The notes beneath the pieces were generated by a model that was given only the letters and a program-made list of their open reading frames with translations, did no database searches and was not told the origin of the DNA. From IMG/VR virus record IMGVR_UViG_3300027898_000020, positions 1 to 39,100 of that record: a stretch of 39,100 bases of DNA, one strand, 5' to 3'. Below, piece by piece: positions 7,296-24,304 of the stretch (positions within the stretch are counted from its first letter, which is position 1; each line of letters begins with the position of its first letter). Both the position numbers and the translations under genes were made by a program. The stretch comes from a virus.

Positions 7296-8882
7296 ATGGG
7301 TACCGTTCTTCTATCCAACAACGCGCGCACAACTCTGGCGACGGGTTGCGCCTCCGGCGACACCTCGCTGACCGTCGCGTCCAGCACCACATTCCCGGCG
7401 CCCACCACGGCGTCCGGCAACTGGTTCTACGCCTGTCTGCAGGACACTTTCGCCAATCTGGAGATCGTTAAGGTAACCAACGTCAGCGGCGCGGTGTGGA
7501 CGGTGACGCGCGCCATCGGCGGCACGACTGCCCTGGCTTTCCCGTCGGGAACTGTGGTGGAGCTGCGGATCACTGCTGAAACGCTCAACGACGTGACCAA
7601 CTACAACGTCACGACCAACGCGCAGAACTCCACCCCGATGTGGATCACCGCGGTAGCCGGCACCAACACGATTACTGGCACGCTTCCTGCTCCGTTCACG
7701 GCGTACGCCGCCGGGCAGACGTTCCAGTTCATTGCTGCGGCAGCCAACACAGGCGCTGTGACCATCAACATCAACAGTGCTGGAGCTAAGGCCGTCACGA
7801 AGCAAGGCGGAATCGCATTCTCAGGTGGAGAATTTGCTGCAGGGACTACGTATATTCTGATATACGACGGCACCGAATTTCAACTTACCGGGGCTGCGAC
7901 CGGGGCGAACGGGGACATCAACAGTTTGAACGCGCTGACCTCCATCAACGGCGGTCAGTTGGCGGGGTTACGCAACAGGCTGATTAACGGGTCGATGTCA
8001 GTTGACCAACGAAATAACGGCAGTGTTGCTACACAGCCTACGAGTTTTGCGTACAACACTGTTGATCGGTGGTCTATATATCCTACCGGAGCCGCAGTTA
8101 CCGCAGCCCGAAATTTGAGTTCTGGAGCGTACAGACTTGCTATATCTGGAGCAACTTCTAATACTGGGTTTACTCTTTTTCAACGAATTGAATCTATCAA
8201 TATTGCAGACTTATCTAATGCAAATACCATTGTAACTTTGTCTGCAGTTTTGAGTTGTGATGGAGGAACTTTTCCTACAGTGCAGGCACAATACGCTATA
8301 CCGGGGGCCACAGACAACTACGGTACAAGCACAACTACGAACATAGGATCGCCTGTAACTCTCACTACAACTCCTACAAGGTACTATTGGACATTCTCCG
8401 TTTCCCCGTTTGCCGTGGCCGGCATGGCAGTCAATTTGACCTTTTCGGCGCTCATTGCCTCAAATATAATTTACGTAGCAAACGTGCAGCTGGAGCCGGG
8501 CCTTGTAGGTACCGTGTTCGAGCAGCGCCCATACGGACAAGAGTTGTTGCTGTGCCAGCGGTATTACCAGAATGTCGGTAGTAATTTCTCTGGGTCTACC
8601 ATAGCTAACACATACGAGATAAATGTCCCGTTCTGGATTCCCGTGCGAGCTACCCCTGGAGTCAGCGTCCGTTCAGGGTGCATCATAAGCGCGCGATCGA
8701 ACACCGGCGGAAGTGTGGGGGATTGGAACACCACAAGCCCAACGATCGCAAATGTGACCGCATCCACTTATGGTATTTGGCTGCAAGTAGCGACTTCTGG
8801 GCTTGGTGGCGGGTGGATTGTTGCGGGTAGGCACCAGAACGGCGATCTGGATAATTTCCTGGCTATTTCTGCGGAGTTGTAA
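7296..8882 (+). CDS. Tail fibre / receptor-binding protein
   Basis: A 528-residue beta-rich protein with no membrane segment. Residues 1 to about 220 are Thr/Ala/Gly-rich and include two short beta modules (FQFIAAAANTGAVTININSA and AGTTYILIYDGTEFQL) common in fibre shafts. At about residue 228 a second domain begins with NRLINGSMSVDQRNNGSV, and then TVDRW. The region FLVQLEPG-like to RPYGQELLLCQRYYQ at about 395-425 is a widespread C-terminal module of phage tail fibres that binds cell-surface sugars. GC falls from about 70% in the N-terminal coding part to 30-48% between about 8040 and 8400, so the receptor-binding part looks acquired from another phage. The gene follows the connector and its stop overlaps the next start. 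Confidence 0.8.
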   Translation: MGTVLLSNNARTTLATGCASGDTSLTVASSTTFPAPTTASGNWFYACLQDTFANLEIVKVTNVSGAVWTVTRAIGGTTALAFPSGTVVELRITAETLNDVTNYNVTTNAQNSTPMWITAVAGTNTITGTLPAPFTAYAAGQTFQFIAAAANTGAVTININSAGAKAVTKQGGIAFSGGEFAAGTTYILIYDGTEFQLTGAATGANGDINSLNALTSINGGQLAGLRNRLINGSMSVDQRNNGSVATQPTSFAYNTVDRWSIYPTGAAVTAARNLSSGAYRLAISGATSNTGFTLFQRIESINIADLSNANTIVTLSAVLSCDGGTFPTVQAQYAIPGATDNYGTSTTTNIGSPVTLTTTPTRYYWTFSVSPFAVAGMAVNLTFSALIASNIIYVANVQLEPGLVGTVFEQRPYGQELLLCQRYYQNVGSNFSGSTIANTYEINVPFWIPVRATPGVSVRSGCIISARSNTGGSVGDWNTTSPTIANVTASTYGIWLQVATSGLGGGWIVAGRHQNGDLDNFLAISAEL

Positions 8883-9259
8883 TGAGCGAATTTCTCACCA
8901 AACTGGATGTCGAACAGGTCGAAGATACCGGCGAACAGGGCCGGGGCACGTGGCGGCTTACCGCGCCGCTGGTGTATCAGTCAGACGTTGCCGGCAAGAC
9001 CATCACGGTCCCAGCCGGTTTTGTCACTGACTTCGCCAGCGTGCCGCGTATTCCAATGATCTTTGACTGGCTCGGGGACCGTGGCAACTTAGCTGCGACC
9101 GTCCACGACTTCCTGTACACCGCACCCCATGTCCTGAACAGCCGCGGGCTGGCGGATGCCGTTCTCCACGAAGCGCTGCTGGTGCAGGGTGTCGGCAACG
9201 ACGAAGCCGAAGCGATATACCTGGGCGTGCGCGTGGGCGGGGCGTCCCACTACGATTGA
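8882..9259 (+). CDS. DUF1353 family phage protein
   Basis: A 125-residue protein with the marks of DUF1353: VPAGFVTDFASVPR at about residues 42-55, then a His-Asp pair (ATVHDFLY) and an Ala-Asp (GLADAVLHEAL). The family is common in or beside phage lysis cassettes and its role is not established. The conserved D-x-x-S-x-P and HD residues suggest metal or catalytic chemistry and hence a possible cell-wall enzyme, but that is inference. It is coupled to the fibre gene by TAATG and opens the lysis region here. Confidence 0.85.
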   Translation: MSEFLTKLDVEQVEDTGEQGRGTWRLTAPLVYQSDVAGKTITVPAGFVTDFASVPRIPMIFDWLGDRGNLAATVHDFLYTAPHVLNSRGLADAVLHEALLVQGVGNDEAEAIYLGVRVGGASHYD

Positions 9260-9284
9260 GGCAGTTGCCGCCAAGCCTATACTT

Positions 9285-9290
9285 TATAAT
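9285..9290 (+). promoter_or_regulatory. Candidate -10 box before lysis genes
   Basis: A perfect TATAAT in the 58-bp gap after the DUF1353 gene. The best -35-like hexamer, TTGCCG at 9265-9270, is only 14 bp away, shorter than usual. It may give a separate promoter for the lysis cassette; evidence is limited to the hexamer and its intergenic position. Confidence 0.3.
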
Positions 9291-9317
9291 CCACGCAGTT
9301 CAACATGGAGCCGCTTA

Positions 9318-9665
9318 ATGCCTGACGACACGGACAACCTTCAATTTGGCCGCCGACAAACAGACAGCGGGATCATTGTGAAACTTGAATTGCTTCACGA
9401 AGATGTTTCAGATATGAAAACCGTGCTGCGTGAGATGACTGCCGCCATTAACCGGCTGGCATTGGTTGAAGAACGGCTGTCGCAAACATCTACCGCCCTG
9501 GAGCGCGCATTTACCGCGCTGGCCAAAGTTGAAGCCCGAGTTTCCTCGCTGGAGCTGTCCAGCGTCAACACCCTGCGAACGTCCTCCATGGTCGATAAGG
9601 GCGTCTGGTTCGTCCTGACCGCAGTGGCTGCCGGTGCGCTCACTTTCCTGGGGATTAAAAAATGA
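9318..9665 (+). CDS. XhlA-like membrane-anchored coiled-coil protein (lysis)
   Basis: A 115-residue protein. I chose the ATG at 9318; the frame is open upstream but that part only overlaps the DUF1353 gene. After a polar N terminus comes a long coiled coil (about residues 20-85, with KLELLHEDVSDMKTVLREMT and VEERLSQTSTALERAFTALA). One C-terminal membrane helix follows at about 94-112 (VWFVLTAVAAGALTFLGI), ending in Lys-Lys. This is the plan of XhlA-type hemolysin/holin-associated proteins. Its position between DUF1353 and DUF5675 genes fits a lysis function, perhaps as holin partner. The end overlaps the next start (ATGA). Confidence 0.7.
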   Translation: MPDDTDNLQFGRRQTDSGIIVKLELLHEDVSDMKTVLREMTAAINRLALVEERLSQTSTALERAFTALAKVEARVSSLELSSVNTLRTSSMVDKGVWFVLTAVAAGALTFLGIKK

Positions 9666-10072: not shown

Positions 10073-10320
10073 TGATGCGCCAGTGGAAACTAAGCGACCT
10101 GTTCGTTGACCACGGCACTGGACGCCTGCGGGAGTCCAAGGTCTGGTCCAATATCGCCAAGGGGTCCATGACGTTCGGCTTTTTGTGGGCCGTCGTCCAC
10201 GGGCAGAATACGGACTGGCTCTGGACGGCGTTCGGCACCCCCTTGCTGGGCCATGAGCTGGTAGGTCGCTGGCTTAATCAAAAGGAACCTGGAAATGTTA
10301 CCCCCAAGCCTGCTGCTTAG
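10072..10320 (+). CDS. Small membrane protein, holin candidate
   Basis: An 82-residue product starting at TGATGATG, overlapping the DUF5675 stop. The N-terminal 30 residues are soluble and basic (MMRQWKLSDLFVDHGTGRLR). Two weak hydrophobic stretches follow at about 31-43 (GSMTFGFLWAVV) and 49-66 (WLWTAFGTPLLGHELVG), then a polar tail ending in Lys-Pro-Ala-Ala. Position between the wall-enzyme candidate and the spanins is where a holin or holin-like pore protein is expected. The hydrophobic segments are short, so this is a candidate, not a firm call. Confidence 0.6.
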   Translation: MMRQWKLSDLFVDHGTGRLRESKVWSNIAKGSMTFGFLWAVVHGQNTDWLWTAFGTPLLGHELVGRWLNQKEPGNVTPKPAA

Positions 10321-10777
10321 ACTCACTTTCGCCGCTGCCGTTCTGGGCGCATTCGCCTATACGGATGTGAAGAGCTACCACGCCGGCGAAAACTCCGTGC
10401 AGGTCGAGTTCGACAAGTACAAGGCCGCCCAGGTGCAGGCGGCGATCGCCGAACAGACCGCGCGCGCAGCCAAGGAACAAGCCCTCAACCAAGCCAACCA
10501 GAAAGTGACGGATGACTATGAAAGCCTCAAAGCTGCTACTGCCACTGCTGTTGGCGCCCTTACTGCTGACCGCGTGCGCTTGCAAGCCACCATCACCGCC
10601 GCTCGTCGTGCAGCCAGCCAAAATCCCACGCCCGGACCCAGCCCTGATGTTACCCCCGAAGACGGGGTTCTTGGAGAGTGCGTCCAGCGACGTGAAGAAG
10701 TGGCAGCTGATGCTGCAGCCCTCTCCGACCAACTGACAGCACTGCAGTCCTGGGTCAACACGGTGGTGCCTGAATAA
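10295..10777 (+). CDS. Rz: i-spanin (Rz-like)
   Basis: A 160-residue protein with a single N-terminal membrane anchor (about residues 5-22, LLLRLTFAAAVLGAFAYTD) and a long periplasmic Ala/Gln/Glu-rich coiled coil (about 40-110), then a Pro-rich linker and a second helix. This is the usual layout of inner-membrane spanins (DUF2514-like), which join the o-spanin to fuse inner and outer membranes at lysis. The start follows AAAGGA and overlaps the holin candidate by 26 bp. A complete Rz1 gene lies within it in another frame, which supports the assignment. Confidence 0.85.
   Translation: MLPPSLLLRLTFAAAVLGAFAYTDVKSYHAGENSVQVEFDKYKAAQVQAAIAEQTARAAKEQALNQANQKVTDDYESLKAATATAVGALTADRVRLQATITAARRAASQNPTPGPSPDVTPEDGVLGECVQRREEVAADAAALSDQLTALQSWVNTVVPE
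10512..10736 (+). CDS. Rz1: o-spanin lipoprotein (Rz1-like), embedded in Rz
   Basis: A 74-residue product fully inside the Rz gene, in the +1 frame. Residues 1-21 form a basic-then-hydrophobic signal peptide (MKASKLLLPLLLAPLLL). A lipobox Leu-Thr-Ala-Cys places the lipidated Cys at position 22. The mature part is Pro-rich (KPPSPPLVVQPAKIPRPDP), typical of Rz1. The fully nested arrangement is known from lambda-like and many other phages. It should sit in the inner leaflet of the outer membrane and bind Rz across the periplasm, which implies a Gram-negative host. Confidence 0.88.
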   Translation: MTMKASKLLLPLLLAPLLLTACACKPPSPPLVVQPAKIPRPDPALMLPPKTGFLESASSDVKKWQLMLQPSPTN

Positions 10778-17254: not shown

Positions 17255-20200
17255 ATGGCAATGAACCCCGCTGCGAAAGACCCCAATGCTTTCGCTTCCA
17301 CAGGTCTGAGTGGCGGGGGGGCAAGCAACGCCATCCTCGGCGTTCCGCAAAATCCGAATATGCCGCGCGGGCCTCAACCCGCCAGTAATCCGCAGACACC
17401 GTTGGCGCAGGCCAACGACGCGGCATTCGGCCCAGGGTACTGGAACACGATCAGCGCCAACGGTGGCTCCGGGCTGGCTGCTCCCGACTATGCATCCCAG
17501 ATCGCCGCGCACAACGACGCTATGATCCAGCAGATGCAGTCGCAGGCTCAACAGCCGCAGCAGACCCCGCAGCTGTACTACGGCGTTGGACCCAACAACG
17601 AGCTGCAAGTGGGCGATCAAGTCGTACCCATGGGGGACAACCCCACATCGGCGGCACAAGCCATCCAGCAGAACCCTGGGGTTGGAATAACGCAGTCGAC
17701 GCTGAAGCCTGGGTTTCGCCCGGTGGCAGCGAGCGACATCAATGAGTACCTGAGTGGTATCCAGCACGGCACACTGAGTGACTTGTATCAAGGGGGTAAA
17801 GAACTGGCCATCCGCACTCCCGGTGCGCTGCTGGGGTCGCTGGGTGCTGCATCCAAGTGGGCTGGCGCTGATACCGTGGGCGCGGGGCTGCAAGGTATGG
17901 GTCAGTCCGTTGACCAGATGACCGGTGCGGATCAGCCCGTTGACACGCTGGGTCGTGGCGCGGTGGGTAAGTGGTTCGTCAACAACATGGCGGGTGCAGC
18001 GCAGATGGTGCCGTTCATCGCCCAGAGTTTCCTGATGCCTGAGACGGCAGTGCCAAAGGCGCTCTCTATACTGGGGGACGTGGCGCTCAATTTCGGGCTG
18101 TTCGGCAGTCAGGCAGCGCAGGAGAAGAAAGAGTCTCTGATCGCCCAGGGCGTGGACCCCGCACAGGCCAACAAAGCCGGCTGGGTCGACTTCTTCTCCA
18201 CCGGTGGTGGCATGATGGCCATGGGTCACGCCAGCCACGCAGCCCTTGACGGCACATACAGCGGTGCACAGCAGATTGTGGCCAAGCTCAAACAAGCAGT
18301 AGGCAAAGGCGCCATGACGGCCGAAGAAGCCGCCGCCGCGGTGACCAACCCCGCACTCCTGGCACGCACAGCCGCAAACCTCGCGGGCAGTACAGCGGTT
18401 CAAGGTGCGGCCATGTCCGGCATGGCTGGCGCCAGTGCAGCGTCCAACAACGCGTACGGCGGTCAACACCAGGATGTCGGCGACGCGATGGCGAGTGGCC
18501 TGGGTACCGGTCTGTCCCTGGGCGTGCTTACATCCCCCTTGGGTGCTGTGCATACATGGCAAGATTCTGGCCGCCGGCGGGCACTGGGGGAAGCGCTCAA
18601 TACGCCATCCGAACAGGTGGACTTGCTCAACGCGCTGAAGCAACAGCAAGCCGCAAAAACAATCACCCCCGAAGTGGGCGCATTGGCCGGCGCCAAGCCG
18701 GCGCAAGACTGGGCGCAAGGTGTTACCGCCAAGGCATTCAACGCGGCTGATTCCAATCAGTTCCGTGCGGATCAAGCGGCGCAAGCCCAGGCCCAACCCG
18801 AGAGTTTCAGCCAGCCATATACACCCCCGGAAGCGCCGGCTGCCCCCGCCGCACCGCAGGAAAACGCAGCGGCCCAGCTCCATGCAGTCAAGGTAGATGA
18901 CACGCTCAAAGCTCTGGGTGTCGGACGCAAGGCACAGAAGGCCGTGCGCGCGGTGGCGGAGGATGCCGTTGCTTCTGGCATCGACCTGGAAAGCCCACAG
19001 GCGGACACGCTGGTTAAACTGCTGAAGAAGGGCACCAAGGGTGCTGCTGGTGCACAGGCTGAACTCGACCGACTCAAAGGACAAAAAGATGGCGTATCTG
19101 GACAACCCAACGATGGAATGCCTCCAAGCACTGGAGCTGGGGGTACTGACGTTGGAGGAGGCGTGGCGGATGGAAAACCTGCGGTTCCTGCCGGAGAGCC
19201 AGCAGGGGGATTGGCTGGTGCCGCCCCCGAGCCTGCAGCCCGCGGCGGAGAAGCTGTGGCTCCTGAGCGCGTGGACGCCGGAGCTGCGCCAGTAGCACCC
19301 AAGGCGGAAATTCCTGATTTTTCGGGCTCGCAGTATCAGCGCGCGCCGTCTACGCTGCTTGAGCGCCCAAGTGGGTCAGCATCGCTGGGGCATCTACAGG
19401 ATAAGTCTTCCCCGGAACACATCCAGGCAGCGCTTGAAGCCGGCCGCCTGACGCCTATTGAAGCAGAACGCGCGCTTGAAGAACTGCGTAAACCCCCTGA
19501 GCAGACGCGCAATTTGTCGCGTGCCACAGAGGAAGAAACTGGACAGGGGCGACTGTTCAAGGGGGAAGTATTCCCCAAGCGGCCGAAACTCCCCAAGGAT
19601 ACACAGCGGGCACGCGCTGCGGTAGACGCAGGCACACCTGAACCGGCACCAGCCAGCCAAATCACAGCGGTTGAAGCCAAGCAGTCGCGCAAACGCCAGG
19701 AGACGGAAGCCGCAGTCGAAGCCGCCAAATCGGAGGAACAGAAGTCCGCGGAGGCAGCGGCTAAGGACGTGACTGTTCCGCAAGATAAGTGGGAAGCAGC
19801 ATTCGGCGATACCCACGGAGAGCGTATCCACCGCGCCCTGAGCGGAGAAACCTTTGGCGCCATCGGGGCAGACCACGGCGTTCAGGAAGACGCGGTGCGT
19901 AAATCACTCAAACGCGCTACGCCGGACTCCATTGACAAGGCGGTAGTGGATGGAAAAATTGACGCGCTGACTGGTGCCGACATGAAGCGCCAGTTGGAAA
20001 AAGCCCAGAAGGGCGCAGTGGTGCGCAAGACTGCGGCTGAAGCCAACGCGGACGGAGGTTCTTCTGCCGGCGTGCATGAAGACTCCACTACAGATCAAAT
20101 CAAAGAAATTGTGGCGGACAAAGGGACGTTCATCACGGCGAGCACGAAGCCCGATGAGACAGCCGGCAAACTCAAGCCAAAAGAAACGCTGATCGCCAAG

Positions 20201-23200
20201 ACAGCCCAGCAGTGGGAAGAACAGCGCCGGGCCAACGCTGGCCCCAAAGGCGACAGCGCCAAATATGACGAAGCCGTAGCAAAGCTCAAAGAGCTGGCTG
20301 CTCAGTGGGGCAAAGCACCCAAATCGGACGCGGAAAAACTTGCCGACGTACAGCGCCAGATCGCCGCAGCGGTCAAAGACGGCGGAAAAGCACCAGCCAA
20401 GCTGGAAGCCAAGCGCAAAGCGCTGCAGGAAAAACTCGATGCTGCAGATGAGGAGGCTGAAAGCGAGGAGGCTGTGGATGACACGGGCGCGCGCGACCAG
20501 GATGAAAAACTGGATGCGCTGGACCAAGAATATGGCCAAGGTATGCAGTTTGGCAAGGGTGCCGGCCCAGCTGAAGGCGGACCCGCGTACACCGCAGCTG
20601 GTTTGAAGAAAGAAATTTCCGACTTTATGGGTGGCCGGGAGCTGCCCGAAGACCGCATCCACATCGTGGACAGCGCCGAAGACCTGGAGCATCTGCCTGA
20701 TCTGGCTGTCGCCATCAAACACGGCGACGCGTTTGGGTGGACCAAGGATGGGCGCGTGGTCATGATCGCCGACCGCATCCCGTCAGGTGAAGGTCGTGCC
20801 AAGTTCATGCACGAAGTGGGCACCCACCTGGGGCTGGAACACATCATGGATTCCGGTGACATCGACCTGCTGGCCATCCGCATCGCCAAGTGGGCTGACC
20901 GCATGGACGGCTCCCAGGAGTCGGAGCTGGCCCGGCGCGCGTTGGAGCGCGTGGGCGCTGCGGGAACCAAAGAAGACCAGACATCCAGCGAGACCGTAGC
21001 GTATTTCCTGGAGGAAGCCACCAAGGCAGGCATCGACCCGTCCAACCCGCGCGGCAAAGGGGAATTCACCGGCTGGCTGCGCCGCATCGCGCAGTCGTTC
21101 AAGCAGGCTGTGGCCAAGTTGCTGAACCTGGACCTGAAAAGCATCACCCCCCAGGACATCGTGGATATGGCCTACGGTGCGGCGCACTTGGCGTACGACA
21201 AGGCCCACCCAAGTAGCGAACGTTCACTGAAGCTGTCTTCCGACGAACGGGCGTTTTTTGAGTCTATTTTCAACAGCCCGGCCGACTTGGAAGGTTTGCA
21301 TGATGAGGTACCCTCTGCCCGAATGGAGGGTGGATTGCTCCGCTATGATCCTGCGGATCGAGAAGCACTCGAAGACTATGTAAGCAGCATGTGGGGGGCA
21401 GGAAAAAAATCGTACGGCGGGGAAGGTGCGGCGTCGTTACCCAAGTCTTTTGCCAACGCAGGTCGCAAATTTATTGACCGCCTTCGCACGTCGCCGGACG
21501 GCGCCGTAAAGTTCGGCAAGAACATCGAGCGCAATATATCCAAGCTGCCTGAGCGCTACCAGGAGCCAGCACGCAACATCACGGACACACTCAACCGGTG
21601 GACCAGCTCCGCACTGGACAAGATGGTGTTTACCAAGGACTTGGTGGAGCGTGGCGTCAAGCGCGGCATGACTGCGCTGCACACCTTTGATGAGCACCGC
21701 GAAGCCCGCGATGCACTGGCCGGTCACTACCAGAAGATGGCATACGACCACATTGAGCCGGTGCGCAACTTCAGTGATGCCGAAAAGCGCGCGCTGAGTG
21801 ATTTCCTGCAGCAGAGCACACTAGACAAGCAGTGGGGGTACGGTGAAAAAGCCGCTGGGTCCGCCAAGTCCATGTACGAAGCGCTGTCTCCTCGCGCCAA
21901 GAAAGTGGCGGAAGGGGTGTTCTCCCATGGGGACACCATCCTGAAGGAAAAGAAAGGTGCGATCCAGGAGCTGTGCGACAACTTGTATGGTTCCATGATT
22001 GATGACGCCAAGGCGGCTGGTCACACCAACGTGGTGGCTGAACTCAAGGCGGAGCGCGACGGCTTCCTGAAAAAATACAACCGGCTGATGGCCTTGGATG
22101 AAGGCAACCCGTACGTATCGCTGCAGCGGCGCGGGGACTTTGTGGCGGTTGGCAAGTCAGAAGAATACCGTCAAGCGGAGGCGGCTGCCCAGGCCAAAGG
22201 CGCGACCAAGGCAGACCGGGACAGACTGCAGGAAATGCAGACCGACCCCAACCATTATCTGGTGTCTTCAGCCCAAAGCATCGCAGAGGCCAAAGTGTTG
22301 CGCCAGAACATGCGCGATGCGGGATTTCCCGCAACGGGGGATCACACGTACTATCGCCCCAAGTCGGAGTGGGCGCGCGACGGCGCTGGGGGAGTGATCG
22401 CCGGTATGGGGCGCCTGCGCAACCAGCTCGACATGATGGCCCGGGAGTCTGCGAACCCGACGGACCGGGCGCGCTACGCGTCCATGAATCACTTGTTGAC
22501 CAACATGTGGCTGGACGCCCTGAGCCAGCGCAGCGCGCGCAAGGCGGAGATGCGTCGCCTGGGTGTGCACGGCACCATGGACGTGGTGGACTCGTTCCGC
22601 CAGTCGGCTGCCGCGGATGCGCATTTCATCTCCGGCATCAAGTACAACGACAAGATGCTCACTGCGCTCAAACAAGCCCGGGAGCAAGCCGACCGCGGCG
22701 AAGGTGAAGACCGCACCATCAACCTGAACATGATGGACGAATTTCTAAAACGGCACGAACAGAGCACAGCGGCTGTACCGACTCCGTGGGCCAACAAGAT
22801 CACCAAGACGGTGGCGCTGTGGCAGATCGCCACCAGCCCGGCGCACTACATCGGCAACCTGATGCAGCCATGGACCATGACGCTACCCTATCTGCAAGCC
22901 AAGCATGGGTACGGCGCGGCAACCAGTGAATTCTTCAAGGCATACAAGGAGATCGGCGGAATCCTGGCTAACACCGGCGTGCTCAACTCGCTCAAAGTGG
23001 ACGACATGCCCGCTGACGTACGCCAGCCGATGAAGCGACTGCTGGAACTCGGGCGCCTGGACATCGGCATGAACACTGAATACACGTCCATGGACCTGAA
23101 CATCATCCCGAAAAATGCAGCGGAACGCAGTATTGCCGCAGCGGCTGACCGGATTACCCAGGCTTCACTCAAGATGGAATCGCTCAACCGGCTCGCCAGC

Positions 23201-24304
23201 GCGGCCGCAGCCTACCGGCTTGAACTCAAGCGCACGGGGGACTCGGAGCGCGCCATGCACTACGCAGCTGACGTGGTGGCAGAAACCCACGGCGACCACA
23301 GCCGCGCCAACGCGCCACGGGTGTTCAACAGCGGGTTCGGCAAGGTAGCGCTGCAGTTCCGCAAATTCCAGCTGGTGCAGCTGACCCAGATGGCCAAAAT
23401 GATTGGCAACCTGCGCAATGCTGATCCTGTGGAGCAGGCAACGGCCGTTCGCATGCTGGGGTATACCTTGGCACACGTGGCAGCACTGGGAGGTGCGGTG
23501 GGTATGCCGGGTTTTGGAACATTCAGTTCTGCGGCGCAAAACATCCAGCATTTGCTCGGCCAAACCCAGGGCGAAGACTGGGAAACCCAGATTGAAAAAG
23601 CCGCTGGTGGACGCGAGATGGCCCAGTTGTTGCTTCGCGGTCTGCCTGGACTGGCCGGCGTAGACCTTACCAGCAAGGTAGGCTACGGAGACATGCTGGG
23701 CATTGCGCCCTACACGGATGTGGACGTGACAGACCGCAAGAGCGTGGTGGACGCCATCGGCCAAGTCACTTCAGGTCCGTTCGGCGGCCTGATGGGGCGC
23801 GCAGCGCAGTCGCTGCACCACGTGCTGGTGGGCAACTACTACAAAGGTTTGGAAGGGTTGATGCCACAAGGTATCGCCAACGTGATGAAGGGTGCACGCG
23901 AGCTGAATGAAGGTGTGACCAACACCAAGGGTGACAAGCTCATGAACATCAACGCTGGCGAAGCGATGTTGGAAGCCCTCGGATTCGAGCCGTCCAGCAA
24001 GGCCATGCAGGCCAACGAAACTGCGTCCATGATCAACTCGACAGAAGGGTTCAAAGACCGTCTGGAGATTCTCAAGGAGCGCTACGCCAACGACGCGCGC
24101 AGCGGGGGTGATGTGTCATCCACAGTCAAGAACCTCAACGCACTGCGGGCAGAGATGCAGGAGCGCGGCTTCCGGCCGGTGTCCCTGGGCGATTTGATCA
24201 AGGCGCCAATGGAGCAGCTTAAACGTGAGATGTTCACGACGCCCGGCGGTGTGCAGTACAACCCGAAAGAATCTGGGCGCGCTGTGGCCCAGCTCCCGAA
24301 GTGA
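17255..24304 (+). CDS. Giant polyvalent ejection protein with metallopeptidase-like motif
   Basis: A 2349-residue protein, the largest of the phage. In order: a Gln/Pro/Asn-rich N terminus (1-140); an Ala/Gly-rich, partly membrane-active region (about 180-370, with MAGAAQMVPFIAQSFLMPE); a long linker (about 490-760) that contains an overprinted gene; an HTH-like segment (about 845-890); charged coiled coils (about 950-1085); and a metallopeptidase-like segment with HEVGTHLGLEH at 1186-1196. Then follow helical domains typical of phage large polyvalent proteins, including PYVSLQRRGDFVAVGKS near 1619 and VALWQIATSPAHYIGNL near 1852. Such proteins are packed in the head and injected with the DNA. 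The motif is HExxxH, one residue longer than canonical HExxH. The gene ends at a shared terminator. Confidence 0.8.
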   Translation: MAMNPAAKDPNAFASTGLSGGGASNAILGVPQNPNMPRGPQPASNPQTPLAQANDAAFGPGYWNTISANGGSGLAAPDYASQIAAHNDAMIQQMQSQAQQPQQTPQLYYGVGPNNELQVGDQVVPMGDNPTSAAQAIQQNPGVGITQSTLKPGFRPVAASDINEYLSGIQHGTLSDLYQGGKELAIRTPGALLGSLGAASKWAGADTVGAGLQGMGQSVDQMTGADQPVDTLGRGAVGKWFVNNMAGAAQMVPFIAQSFLMPETAVPKALSILGDVALNFGLFGSQAAQEKKESLIAQGVDPAQANKAGWVDFFSTGGGMMAMGHASHAALDGTYSGAQQIVAKLKQAVGKGAMTAEEAAAAVTNPALLARTAANLAGSTAVQGAAMSGMAGASAASNNAYGGQHQDVGDAMASGLGTGLSLGVLTSPLGAVHTWQDSGRRRALGEALNTPSEQVDLLNALKQQQAAKTITPEVGALAGAKPAQDWAQGVTAKAFNAADSNQFRADQAAQAQAQPESFSQPYTPPEAPAAPAAPQENAAAQLHAVKVDDTLKALGVGRKAQKAVRAVAEDAVASGIDLESPQADTLVKLLKKGTKGAAGAQAELDRLKGQKDGVSGQPNDGMPPSTGAGGTDVGGGVADGKPAVPAGEPAGGLAGAAPEPAARGGEAVAPERVDAGAAPVAPKAEIPDFSGSQYQRAPSTLLERPSGSASLGHLQDKSSPEHIQAALEAGRLTPIEAERALEELRKPPEQTRNLSRATEEETGQGRLFKGEVFPKRPKLPKDTQRARAAVDAGTPEPAPASQITAVEAKQSRKRQETEAAVEAAKSEEQKSAEAAAKDVTVPQDKWEAAFGDTHGERIHRALSGETFGAIGADHGVQEDAVRKSLKRATPDSIDKAVVDGKIDALTGADMKRQLEKAQKGAVVRKTAAEANADGGSSAGVHEDSTTDQIKEIVADKGTFITASTKPDETAGKLKPKETLIAKTAQQWEEQRRANAGPKGDSAKYDEAVAKLKELAAQWGKAPKSDAEKLADVQRQIAAAVKDGGKAPAKLEAKRKALQEKLDAADEEAESEEAVDDTGARDQDEKLDALDQEYGQGMQFGKGAGPAEGGPAYTAAGLKKEISDFMGGRELPEDRIHIVDSAEDLEHLPDLAVAIKHGDAFGWTKDGRVVMIADRIPSGEGRAKFMHEVGTHLGLEHIMDSGDIDLLAIRIAKWADRMDGSQESELARRALERVGAAGTKEDQTSSETVAYFLEEATKAGIDPSNPRGKGEFTGWLRRIAQSFKQAVAKLLNLDLKSITPQDIVDMAYGAAHLAYDKAHPSSERSLKLSSDERAFFESIFNSPADLEGLHDEVPSARMEGGLLRYDPADREALEDYVSSMWGAGKKSYGGEGAASLPKSFANAGRKFIDRLRTSPDGAVKFGKNIERNISKLPERYQEPARNITDTLNRWTSSALDKMVFTKDLVERGVKRGMTALHTFDEHREARDALAGHYQKMAYDHIEPVRNFSDAEKRALSDFLQQSTLDKQWGYGEKAAGSAKSMYEALSPRAKKVAEGVFSHGDTILKEKKGAIQELCDNLYGSMIDDAKAAGHTNVVAELKAERDGFLKKYNRLMALDEGNPYVSLQRRGDFVAVGKSEEYRQAEAAAQAKGATKADRDRLQEMQTDPNHYLVSSAQSIAEAKVLRQNMRDAGFPATGDHTYYRPKSEWARDGAGGVIAGMGRLRNQLDMMARESANPTDRARYASMNHLLTNMWLDALSQRSARKAEMRRLGVHGTMDVVDSFRQSAAADAHFISGIKYNDKMLTALKQAREQADRGEGEDRTINLNMMDEFLKRHEQSTAAVPTPWANKITKTVALWQIATSPAHYIGNLMQPWTMTLPYLQAKHGYGAATSEFFKAYKEIGGILANTGVLNSLKVDDMPADVRQPMKRLLELGRLDIGMNTEYTSMDLNIIPKNAAERSIAAAADRITQASLKMESLNRLASAAAAYRLELKRTGDSERAMHYAADVVAETHGDHSRANAPRVFNSGFGKVALQFRKFQLVQLTQMAKMIGNLRNADPVEQATAVRMLGYTLAHVAALGGAVGMPGFGTFSSAAQNIQHLLGQTQGEDWETQIEKAAGGREMAQLLLRGLPGLAGVDLTSKVGYGDMLGIAPYTDVDVTDRKSVVDAIGQVTSGPFGGLMGRAAQSLHHVLVGNYYKGLEGLMPQGIANVMKGARELNEGVTNTKGDKLMNINAGEAMLEALGFEPSSKAMQANETASMINSTEGFKDRLEILKERYANDARSGGDVSSTVKNLNALRAEMQERGFRPVSLGDLIKAPMEQLKREMFTTPGGVQYNPKESGRAVAQLPK
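19089..19295 (+). CDS. Overprinted 68-residue protein nested in ejection gene
   Basis: A small gene in the +1 frame, wholly inside the giant ejection gene. Its ATG follows AAGGA at seven bases. Hand counting gives 61 of 69 codons (88%) with G or C in third position, against 29 of 69 (42%) for the ejection frame over the same bases, so the coding bias sits in the nested frame here. The product looks globular: Met-Glu-Cys and Leu-rich helices (CLQALELGVLTLEEAWRMEN, then FLPESQQGDWLVPPP, then AAEKLWLLSAW). Over the same bases the giant protein is a disordered Gly/Ala/Pro linker (residues about 612-680). I do not know its function. It may be an old separate gene that lay between two ejection genes now fused. 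Confidence 0.72.
   Translation: MAYLDNPTMECLQALELGVLTLEEAWRMENLRFLPESQQGDWLVPPPSLQPAAEKLWLLSAWTPELRQ

Follow-up and report, generated by a model that had tools for sequence, protein, structure and literature searches.

The window, that is the whole stretch of 39,100 nucleotides of IMG/VR virus record IMGVR_UViG_3300027898_000020 analysed here, carries a gene for a giant ejection protein that encloses a second, short reading frame. The features of this locus are:

17255 to 24304, plus strand: giant ejection/polyvalent protein of 2349 residues with a C-terminal PLxRFG ('tail-700', NF032893)/DarB-like region
19076 to 19081, plus strand: Shine-Dalgarno sequence AAAGGA of the nested gene, lying within the LKG codons of the giant protein and invariant in four lineages
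19089 to 19295, plus strand: nested gene in the +1 frame of the giant ORF (17255-24304), 68 residues followed by TAG; product MAYLDNPTMECLQALELGVLTLEEAWRMENLRFLPESQQGDWLVPPPSLQPAAEKLWLLSAWTPELRQ
19088 to 19294, plus strand: reading of the nested-gene bases in the giant frame, a Gly/Ala/Pro-rich linker with 88% disorder-type residues

Residues 1734-2284 of the giant protein match NCBIfam NF032893 (E 3e-75), and the protein also matches PHROG 10089 (DarB-like). Judged from its sequence, the host gene is a late, virion-class gene for a large polyvalent/PLxRFG giant ejection protein. The counterpart giant of the Bcep22-like phage JC1 was found to be virion-associated by mass spectrometry (PMC9144972). 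Relatives of the window giant were present in three IMG/VR lineages, namely L003 with its near-twin L010, L017, and L001/L002, the last two being counted as one lineage as their giant genes do not differ in sequence. Among the window, L001, L003 and L017, the central part of the giant protein is exchanged, the C-terminal 900 or so residues staying about 70% identical; the L001 giant has a HEXXH motif at residue 1316, and those of L003 and L017 contain an extra central segment.

The shift of the coding signal at 19089-19295 that was noticed in the initial annotation was confirmed, as was the linker reading of the giant protein over the same bases. Over the overlap, third positions have a G+C content of 0.884 when read in the small frame and of 0.420 when read in that of the giant, compared to 0.69 for the whole giant gene. 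Among 69-codon windows of the giant gene outside the overlap, the main-frame value never fell below 0.507 and the +1-frame value never exceeded 0.841. Given the amino acids of the giant protein, a main-frame value as low as that of the overlap is rare under synonymous randomisation (P = 0.00025). The length of the +1 ORF was dropped as evidence, since open +1 frames are common in such DNA, with 34% of the synonymous randomisations that keep the amino acids of the giant protein also leaving this frame open. The length is thus not surprising by itself; it is the conservation that exceeds chance. Antisense ORFs across the overlap were also considered and discarded, L001 having stops and L003 one stop in them. 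The frequency of open +1 frames is in line with a different explanation, according to which a GC-rich linker of low complexity gives rise to the ORF as a by-product and no protein is made. This explanation also draws on Thalassomonas phage BA3, introduced below, where the wobble positions of the small frame are similarly rich in G and C (0.79) against a third-position G+C content of 0.33 in the giant gene, so that the composition mirrors the giant frame. The 88% G+C at third positions highlighted in the initial annotation is therefore a real value, but it is not the plain gene signature it was taken for, and its use as a mark of old codon usage is weakened by the BA3 case.

The nested frame has its own ATG and a ribosome-binding site, the end of AAAGGA lying 7 bases upstream of the start codon, as had been reported for the window. 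In each of the four lineages, the ATG is preceded at a distance of 5-8 bases by AAAGG, and both elements are present at all nested loci. When the giant genes were scanned, the nested ORF was the only out-of-frame ORF with an ATG start and a Shine-Dalgarno sequence common to the four lineages. The start region is among the least structured positions of the giant mRNA (lowest 0.3% in the window and 6.5%, 12% and 4% in the other lineages). An in-frame TGA is located 3-4 codons upstream of the ATG in L003, L017 and L001, so that a long extension of the frame upstream is ruled out and there is hardly any space for entry by frameshifting. A GTG start at 19041 is unlikely for a similar reason, a stop lying between the GTG region and the ATG in three relatives. 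Programmed frameshifting from the giant protein, rather than internal initiation, could be suspected from an A-run (CAAAAAG) just ahead of the nested ATG in the window. However, this run is not kept, L017 reading GGCTCAAATG, and the Shine-Dalgarno sequence and the ATG are kept in all lineages. On these grounds and that of the upstream TGA, access by frameshifting was rejected, and we give it hardly any chance of being correct. Ribosomes would instead initiate internally on the late giant-gene mRNA, at the nested ATG with its own Shine-Dalgarno sequence.

A homologue of the nested ORF occurs in the three independent IMG/VR lineages at the same place, in the +1 frame and with a Shine-Dalgarno sequence and ATG. 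The predicted product is intact in L003 (67 residues) and L017 (66 residues), and its identity between lineages ranges from 38 to 71%. Only in L001 (6750-6953) and L002 is the ORF not intact, an in-frame TAA following after 52 codons; the codons beyond it still resemble those of the intact relatives, and the gene may be shortened, read through or newly broken in this lineage. Frame-disrupting changes in close relatives, which had been named in the initial annotation as an argument against a gene, are thus found in one of the four lineages of the close group, the frame being intact in the other three.

Evidence for a gene comes from the pattern of substitutions in the two frames. With the amino acids of the giant protein fixed and the codons redrawn, the +1-frame similarity between lineages is 7-9.5 standard deviations above a null that ignores shared ancestry, for which reason the rest of the giant gene was used as a control. 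The +1 score minus the main-frame score amounts to +30 to +90 points at the overlap and to at most +20 elsewhere in the giant gene. For L003 and L001, a pair with a sound main-frame alignment in this region, the z-score is 9.6 at the overlap versus at most 5.2 elsewhere. In the mirror test, in which the small protein was fixed, the similarity of the giant frame gave z values of only 1.7-6.0, indicating stronger constraint on the small protein than on the giant one. The MAFFT main-frame alignment of the window with its relatives misplaces the linker gaps and hides the signal; in its place, local scores and an alignment guided by the small frame were employed. The synonymous variability of the giant gene, proposed earlier as a check, proved to be lower in the overlap than in the rest of the gene: wobble differences of the giant frame per site drop to 0.17-0.44 there, from 0.56-0.61 for the gene as a whole. 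At the same time, the first position of the giant frame, which is the wobble position of the small frame, becomes the most variable position in the overlap. In a sliding-window control, the difference between first and third positions seen at the overlap was unmatched elsewhere in the gene for the pairs L003-L001 and L017-L001. The suppression of giant wobble differences is also observed within the BA3/FGH group (0.20-0.25 in the overlap vs 0.51-0.54) and within the VvAW1 group (about 0.12 vs 0.27-0.29). These patterns indicate that the small frame is under purifying selection.

The link to other phages arose from structure prediction. The first AlphaFold model of the nested product had a pLDDT of 65, and its sole notable Foldseek match was A8HNW3, a viral protein of 110 residues (probability 0.97, E 0.39), presumably from Thalassomonas phage BA3. 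While this match served as a lead only, the claim of a nested family rests on sequence tests. In the BA3 genome, a gene for 110 residues (BA3_0004) is annotated in the +1 phase inside the gene for the 2631-residue giant BA3_0002. Comparison by hhalign of the window-group alignment with that of BA3, FGH and VvAW1 gave a probability of 93% (E 3.4e-7). When the six frames of the window-group contigs were searched with the BA3/VvAW1 HMM, the nested ORFs ranked at the top (L017 4e-7, L003 1.4e-3, window 0.043), with noise starting at 1.2; in the reverse search, all six nested ORFs were the top matches at 2.7e-8 to 4e-5, with noise from 3. The copy of the window itself matches the distant groups least well, being marginal on its own at E 0.043, and it is L017 and L003 that provide the link. 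The BA3/FGH and VvAW1 groups are connected by tblastn matches with E-values of 4e-3 and 7e-3 in the whole phage collection. Homologues of the 68-residue product, for which a search among phage proteins had been suggested in the initial annotation, thus exist in BA3, FGH, VvAW1 and IMG/VR contigs, and these sequence comparisons indicate that the nested ORFs of the window, BA3/FGH and VvAW1 groups belong to one gene family.

A scan of IMG/VR added the nested copies L051-L060. All 14 loci examined have the ORF at +1 within one open giant frame. The giant ejection/polyvalent genes with a nested copy comprise 2,350-3,640 codons, the nested ORF is situated near codon 470-656, and each record searched contained one copy. 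As far as its sequences indicate, the family is so far found only nested, in the +1 phase, in giant-protein linkers of podovirus-like phages. As polyvalent proteins, the host giants contain methyltransferase, helicase or LPD38 domains, those of BA3 and VvAW1 combining LPD38 and methyltransferase domains. Among the genomes examined, only the BA3 copy had been annotated, those of the Vibrio phages FGH and VvAW1 being unannotated; this conserved gene was missed in every genome but BA3 because gene callers discard ORFs inside larger genes. The deposited start of BA3_0004 (L043, 8141-8473) is probably wrong and too early, as the conserved part begins at a methionine about 47 codons into the annotated 110-residue frame (MPEWL...).

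Taken together, we consider it highly probable that the +1 ORF of the window is a genuine overlapping gene, internally initiated and encoding a small helical protein, over which the giant protein reads a linker. The by-product explanation is contradicted by a small-frame similarity far above the null with the giant frame fixed, by the depletion of giant wobble substitutions in three phage groups, and by a cross-group homology that is stronger in the small frame than in the giant frame (24 of 55 vs 10 of 49 matching positions between L017 and FGH), and we regard it as very improbable. The conservation, the purifying selection on the small frame, the homology and the fixed phase are established by computation, and the nested gene is presumably translated in vivo. 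The earlier proposal of an overprinted, selected gene inside the gene of a polyvalent ejection protein has thus gained support both from the homologues and from the reduced synonymous change in the giant gene.

The way in which the two frames share the bases offers an explanation for the compositional cue. The wobble base of the small frame is the first base of the giant frame, and across the groups it is T in only 1-5 of 61-68 codons. The near-absence of T at the first position of the giant frame results in no stops and few bulky residues there, and hence in the linker reading: G, A, P, E, S, T, Q, D, N, R and K make up 82-89% of the giant linker over the nested gene across groups. Keeping T out of this position also accounts for the G/C-rich wobble of the small frame even in BA3. 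The composition therefore appears, on sequence grounds, to be a mark of dual coding and not of the ordinary codon usage of the small gene. According to the mechanism that we propose, a wobble base kept as G, C or A would bar stops and bulky residues from the linker while costing the small protein nothing, the giant protein would use the overlap bases for nothing but a flexible linker, and the internal start would give rise to a small protein, soluble and helical, that is some 61-68 residues long.

As to its origin, the first proposal of the initial annotation was an independent gene between two ejection genes that was trapped when these fused. Both the compact product and the fact that the giant protein reads only a linker at this place would agree with such an event. 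However, no split giant gene was found, with nesting in one open giant frame at 14 of 14 loci, and no free-standing copy was detected in IMG/VR, INPHARED or one genome per GTDB species by searches that included motif and profile scans; the giant gene itself was searched for in the GTDB genomes and was also not found. The fusion claim is thus left without support, and we judge it to be quite unlikely. The second proposal made in the initial annotation, namely that a linker evolved over a pre-existing gene, may apply, since the family is older than the giant protein of the window. The nested gene is absent from five close relatives of BA3 (41E34, D478, X14, 1.183.O and 1.211.A), which differ in the linker and are about 70-77% identical to BA3/FGH over most of the giant, and it was not found in the Bcep22-like records searched. 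These absences show that the gene is dispensable. In the BA3 relatives L047, L048, L049 and L050, another sequence with a ParB-like look (...VPQFKEGANVKGVVEPLGGKFERTG...IWVREDGRKEVISGRHRLDLAERSG...) occupies the place of the BA3/FGH nested gene, and the linker of these giants looks like an exchange site. The giants of BA3 and VvAW1 have homologous N-terminal domains, and no relation of the N-terminal domain of the window-group giant to either of them was detectable. Either the giants of all groups share a common ancestor too remote to be seen, or linker and gene have moved as a cassette. We tentatively put forward, as a possibility rather than a probability, that the two form a dual-coding cassette which passes, without any change of phase, among giant ejection genes that are otherwise unrelated. 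If this holds true, insertion of the linker keeps the giant gene open and delivers a complete second gene at once.

The nested product is acidic and mostly helical by prediction. Its net charge is -6, compared to -5 to -8 in the window group, -4 to -5 in VvAW1-type copies and near neutrality in BA3 and FGH. Adding the BA3, FGH and VvAW1-type sequences raised the pLDDT of the model from 65 to 77.5, and the improved predicted model consists of two short helices, a small hairpin and one long helix. Neither of the two predicted models had a meaningful Foldseek match in the PDB, and the product had no relative in Pfam, PHROG, NCBIfam or the PDB. A nested lysis gene of the E or Rz1 type was considered and rejected, the longest uncharged run comprising 12 residues (WLVPPPSLQPAA) and neither a transmembrane segment nor a lipoprotein signal peptide with a lipobox being present. 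The most likely role, though short of probable, would be that of a late, small, soluble helical accessory protein produced alongside the giant one, for instance a partner in its assembly or ejection, or a protein that is ejected with it. About equally likely, and likewise short of probable, is that the gene is real but encodes a host-takeover or anti-defence factor, an exchangeable accessory module of polyvalent proteins rather than a part of the ejection apparatus. The latter role would fit the patchy presence of the gene, with BA3 and FGH carrying it and their relatives carrying other linker sequence, as well as the nature of the host giants, since polyvalent proteins are a class that has been linked to counter-defence (PMC5512222). 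Against it, late ejection genes are the only location of the nested gene, which never occurs among the early ones, and no defence or counter-defence family was matched in Pfam, PHROG or NCBIfam.

No description of a gene nested in that of a giant ejection or polyvalent protein was found in the open PMC text; overlap or nesting is mentioned neither in the VvAW1 paper nor in the survey of polyvalent proteins (PMC5512222), and the word 'overlap' occurs once in the X14 paper, in a reference title. No gene family appears to have been shown before to occupy a constant phase within the giant polyvalent ejection proteins of distinct phage groups. The present one provides a clear rule for two frames sharing DNA, in which the wobble of one sets the linker chemistry of the other, and makes it testable whether the linkers of giant virion proteins routinely carry second genes.

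Nested genes as such are of an old kind, as exemplified by E within D of phiX174 and Rz1 within Rz. Like these, the window gene is small, lies wholly inside another gene on the same strand and has an internal start, but its product differs in having no membrane segment or lipobox, and it resides in an ejection gene instead of a lysis or assembly gene. As a separate observation, the window has a gene for an Rz-like spanin at 10295-10777 that encloses, in a different frame, an ORF of 74 residues (10512-10736), the arrangement expected of a nested Rz1. The chaperone genes of the gpG/gpGT type next to tape-measure genes resemble the window gene in that a small helical late protein is encoded beside the gene of a giant virion protein. 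They differ from it in that the window gene lies inside the client gene, with a predicted internal start in place of a frameshift, and in that its product has no sequence match to chaperone families and no fold match. Elsewhere in the window, a tail-assembly-chaperone-like gene (8882-9259, PHROG 1158) is overlapped by an ORF of 169 residues (9156-9665) without a PHROG match, possibly as a frameshift pair or as a start overlap. The copies in BA3 (BA3_0004), FGH and VvAW1 are without the first 11 or so residues of the window group, and the giants of BA3 and VvAW1 differ from that of the window in their N-terminal domain, as described above. In spite of these differences, they share with the window gene the core V-[ILV]-[ST]-x-x-EA ... 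P-x-x-L-x-x-A-x-x-[RK]-L-x-L, the +1 phase in the linker of a giant ejection/polyvalent gene, and an ATG and Shine-Dalgarno sequence of their own.
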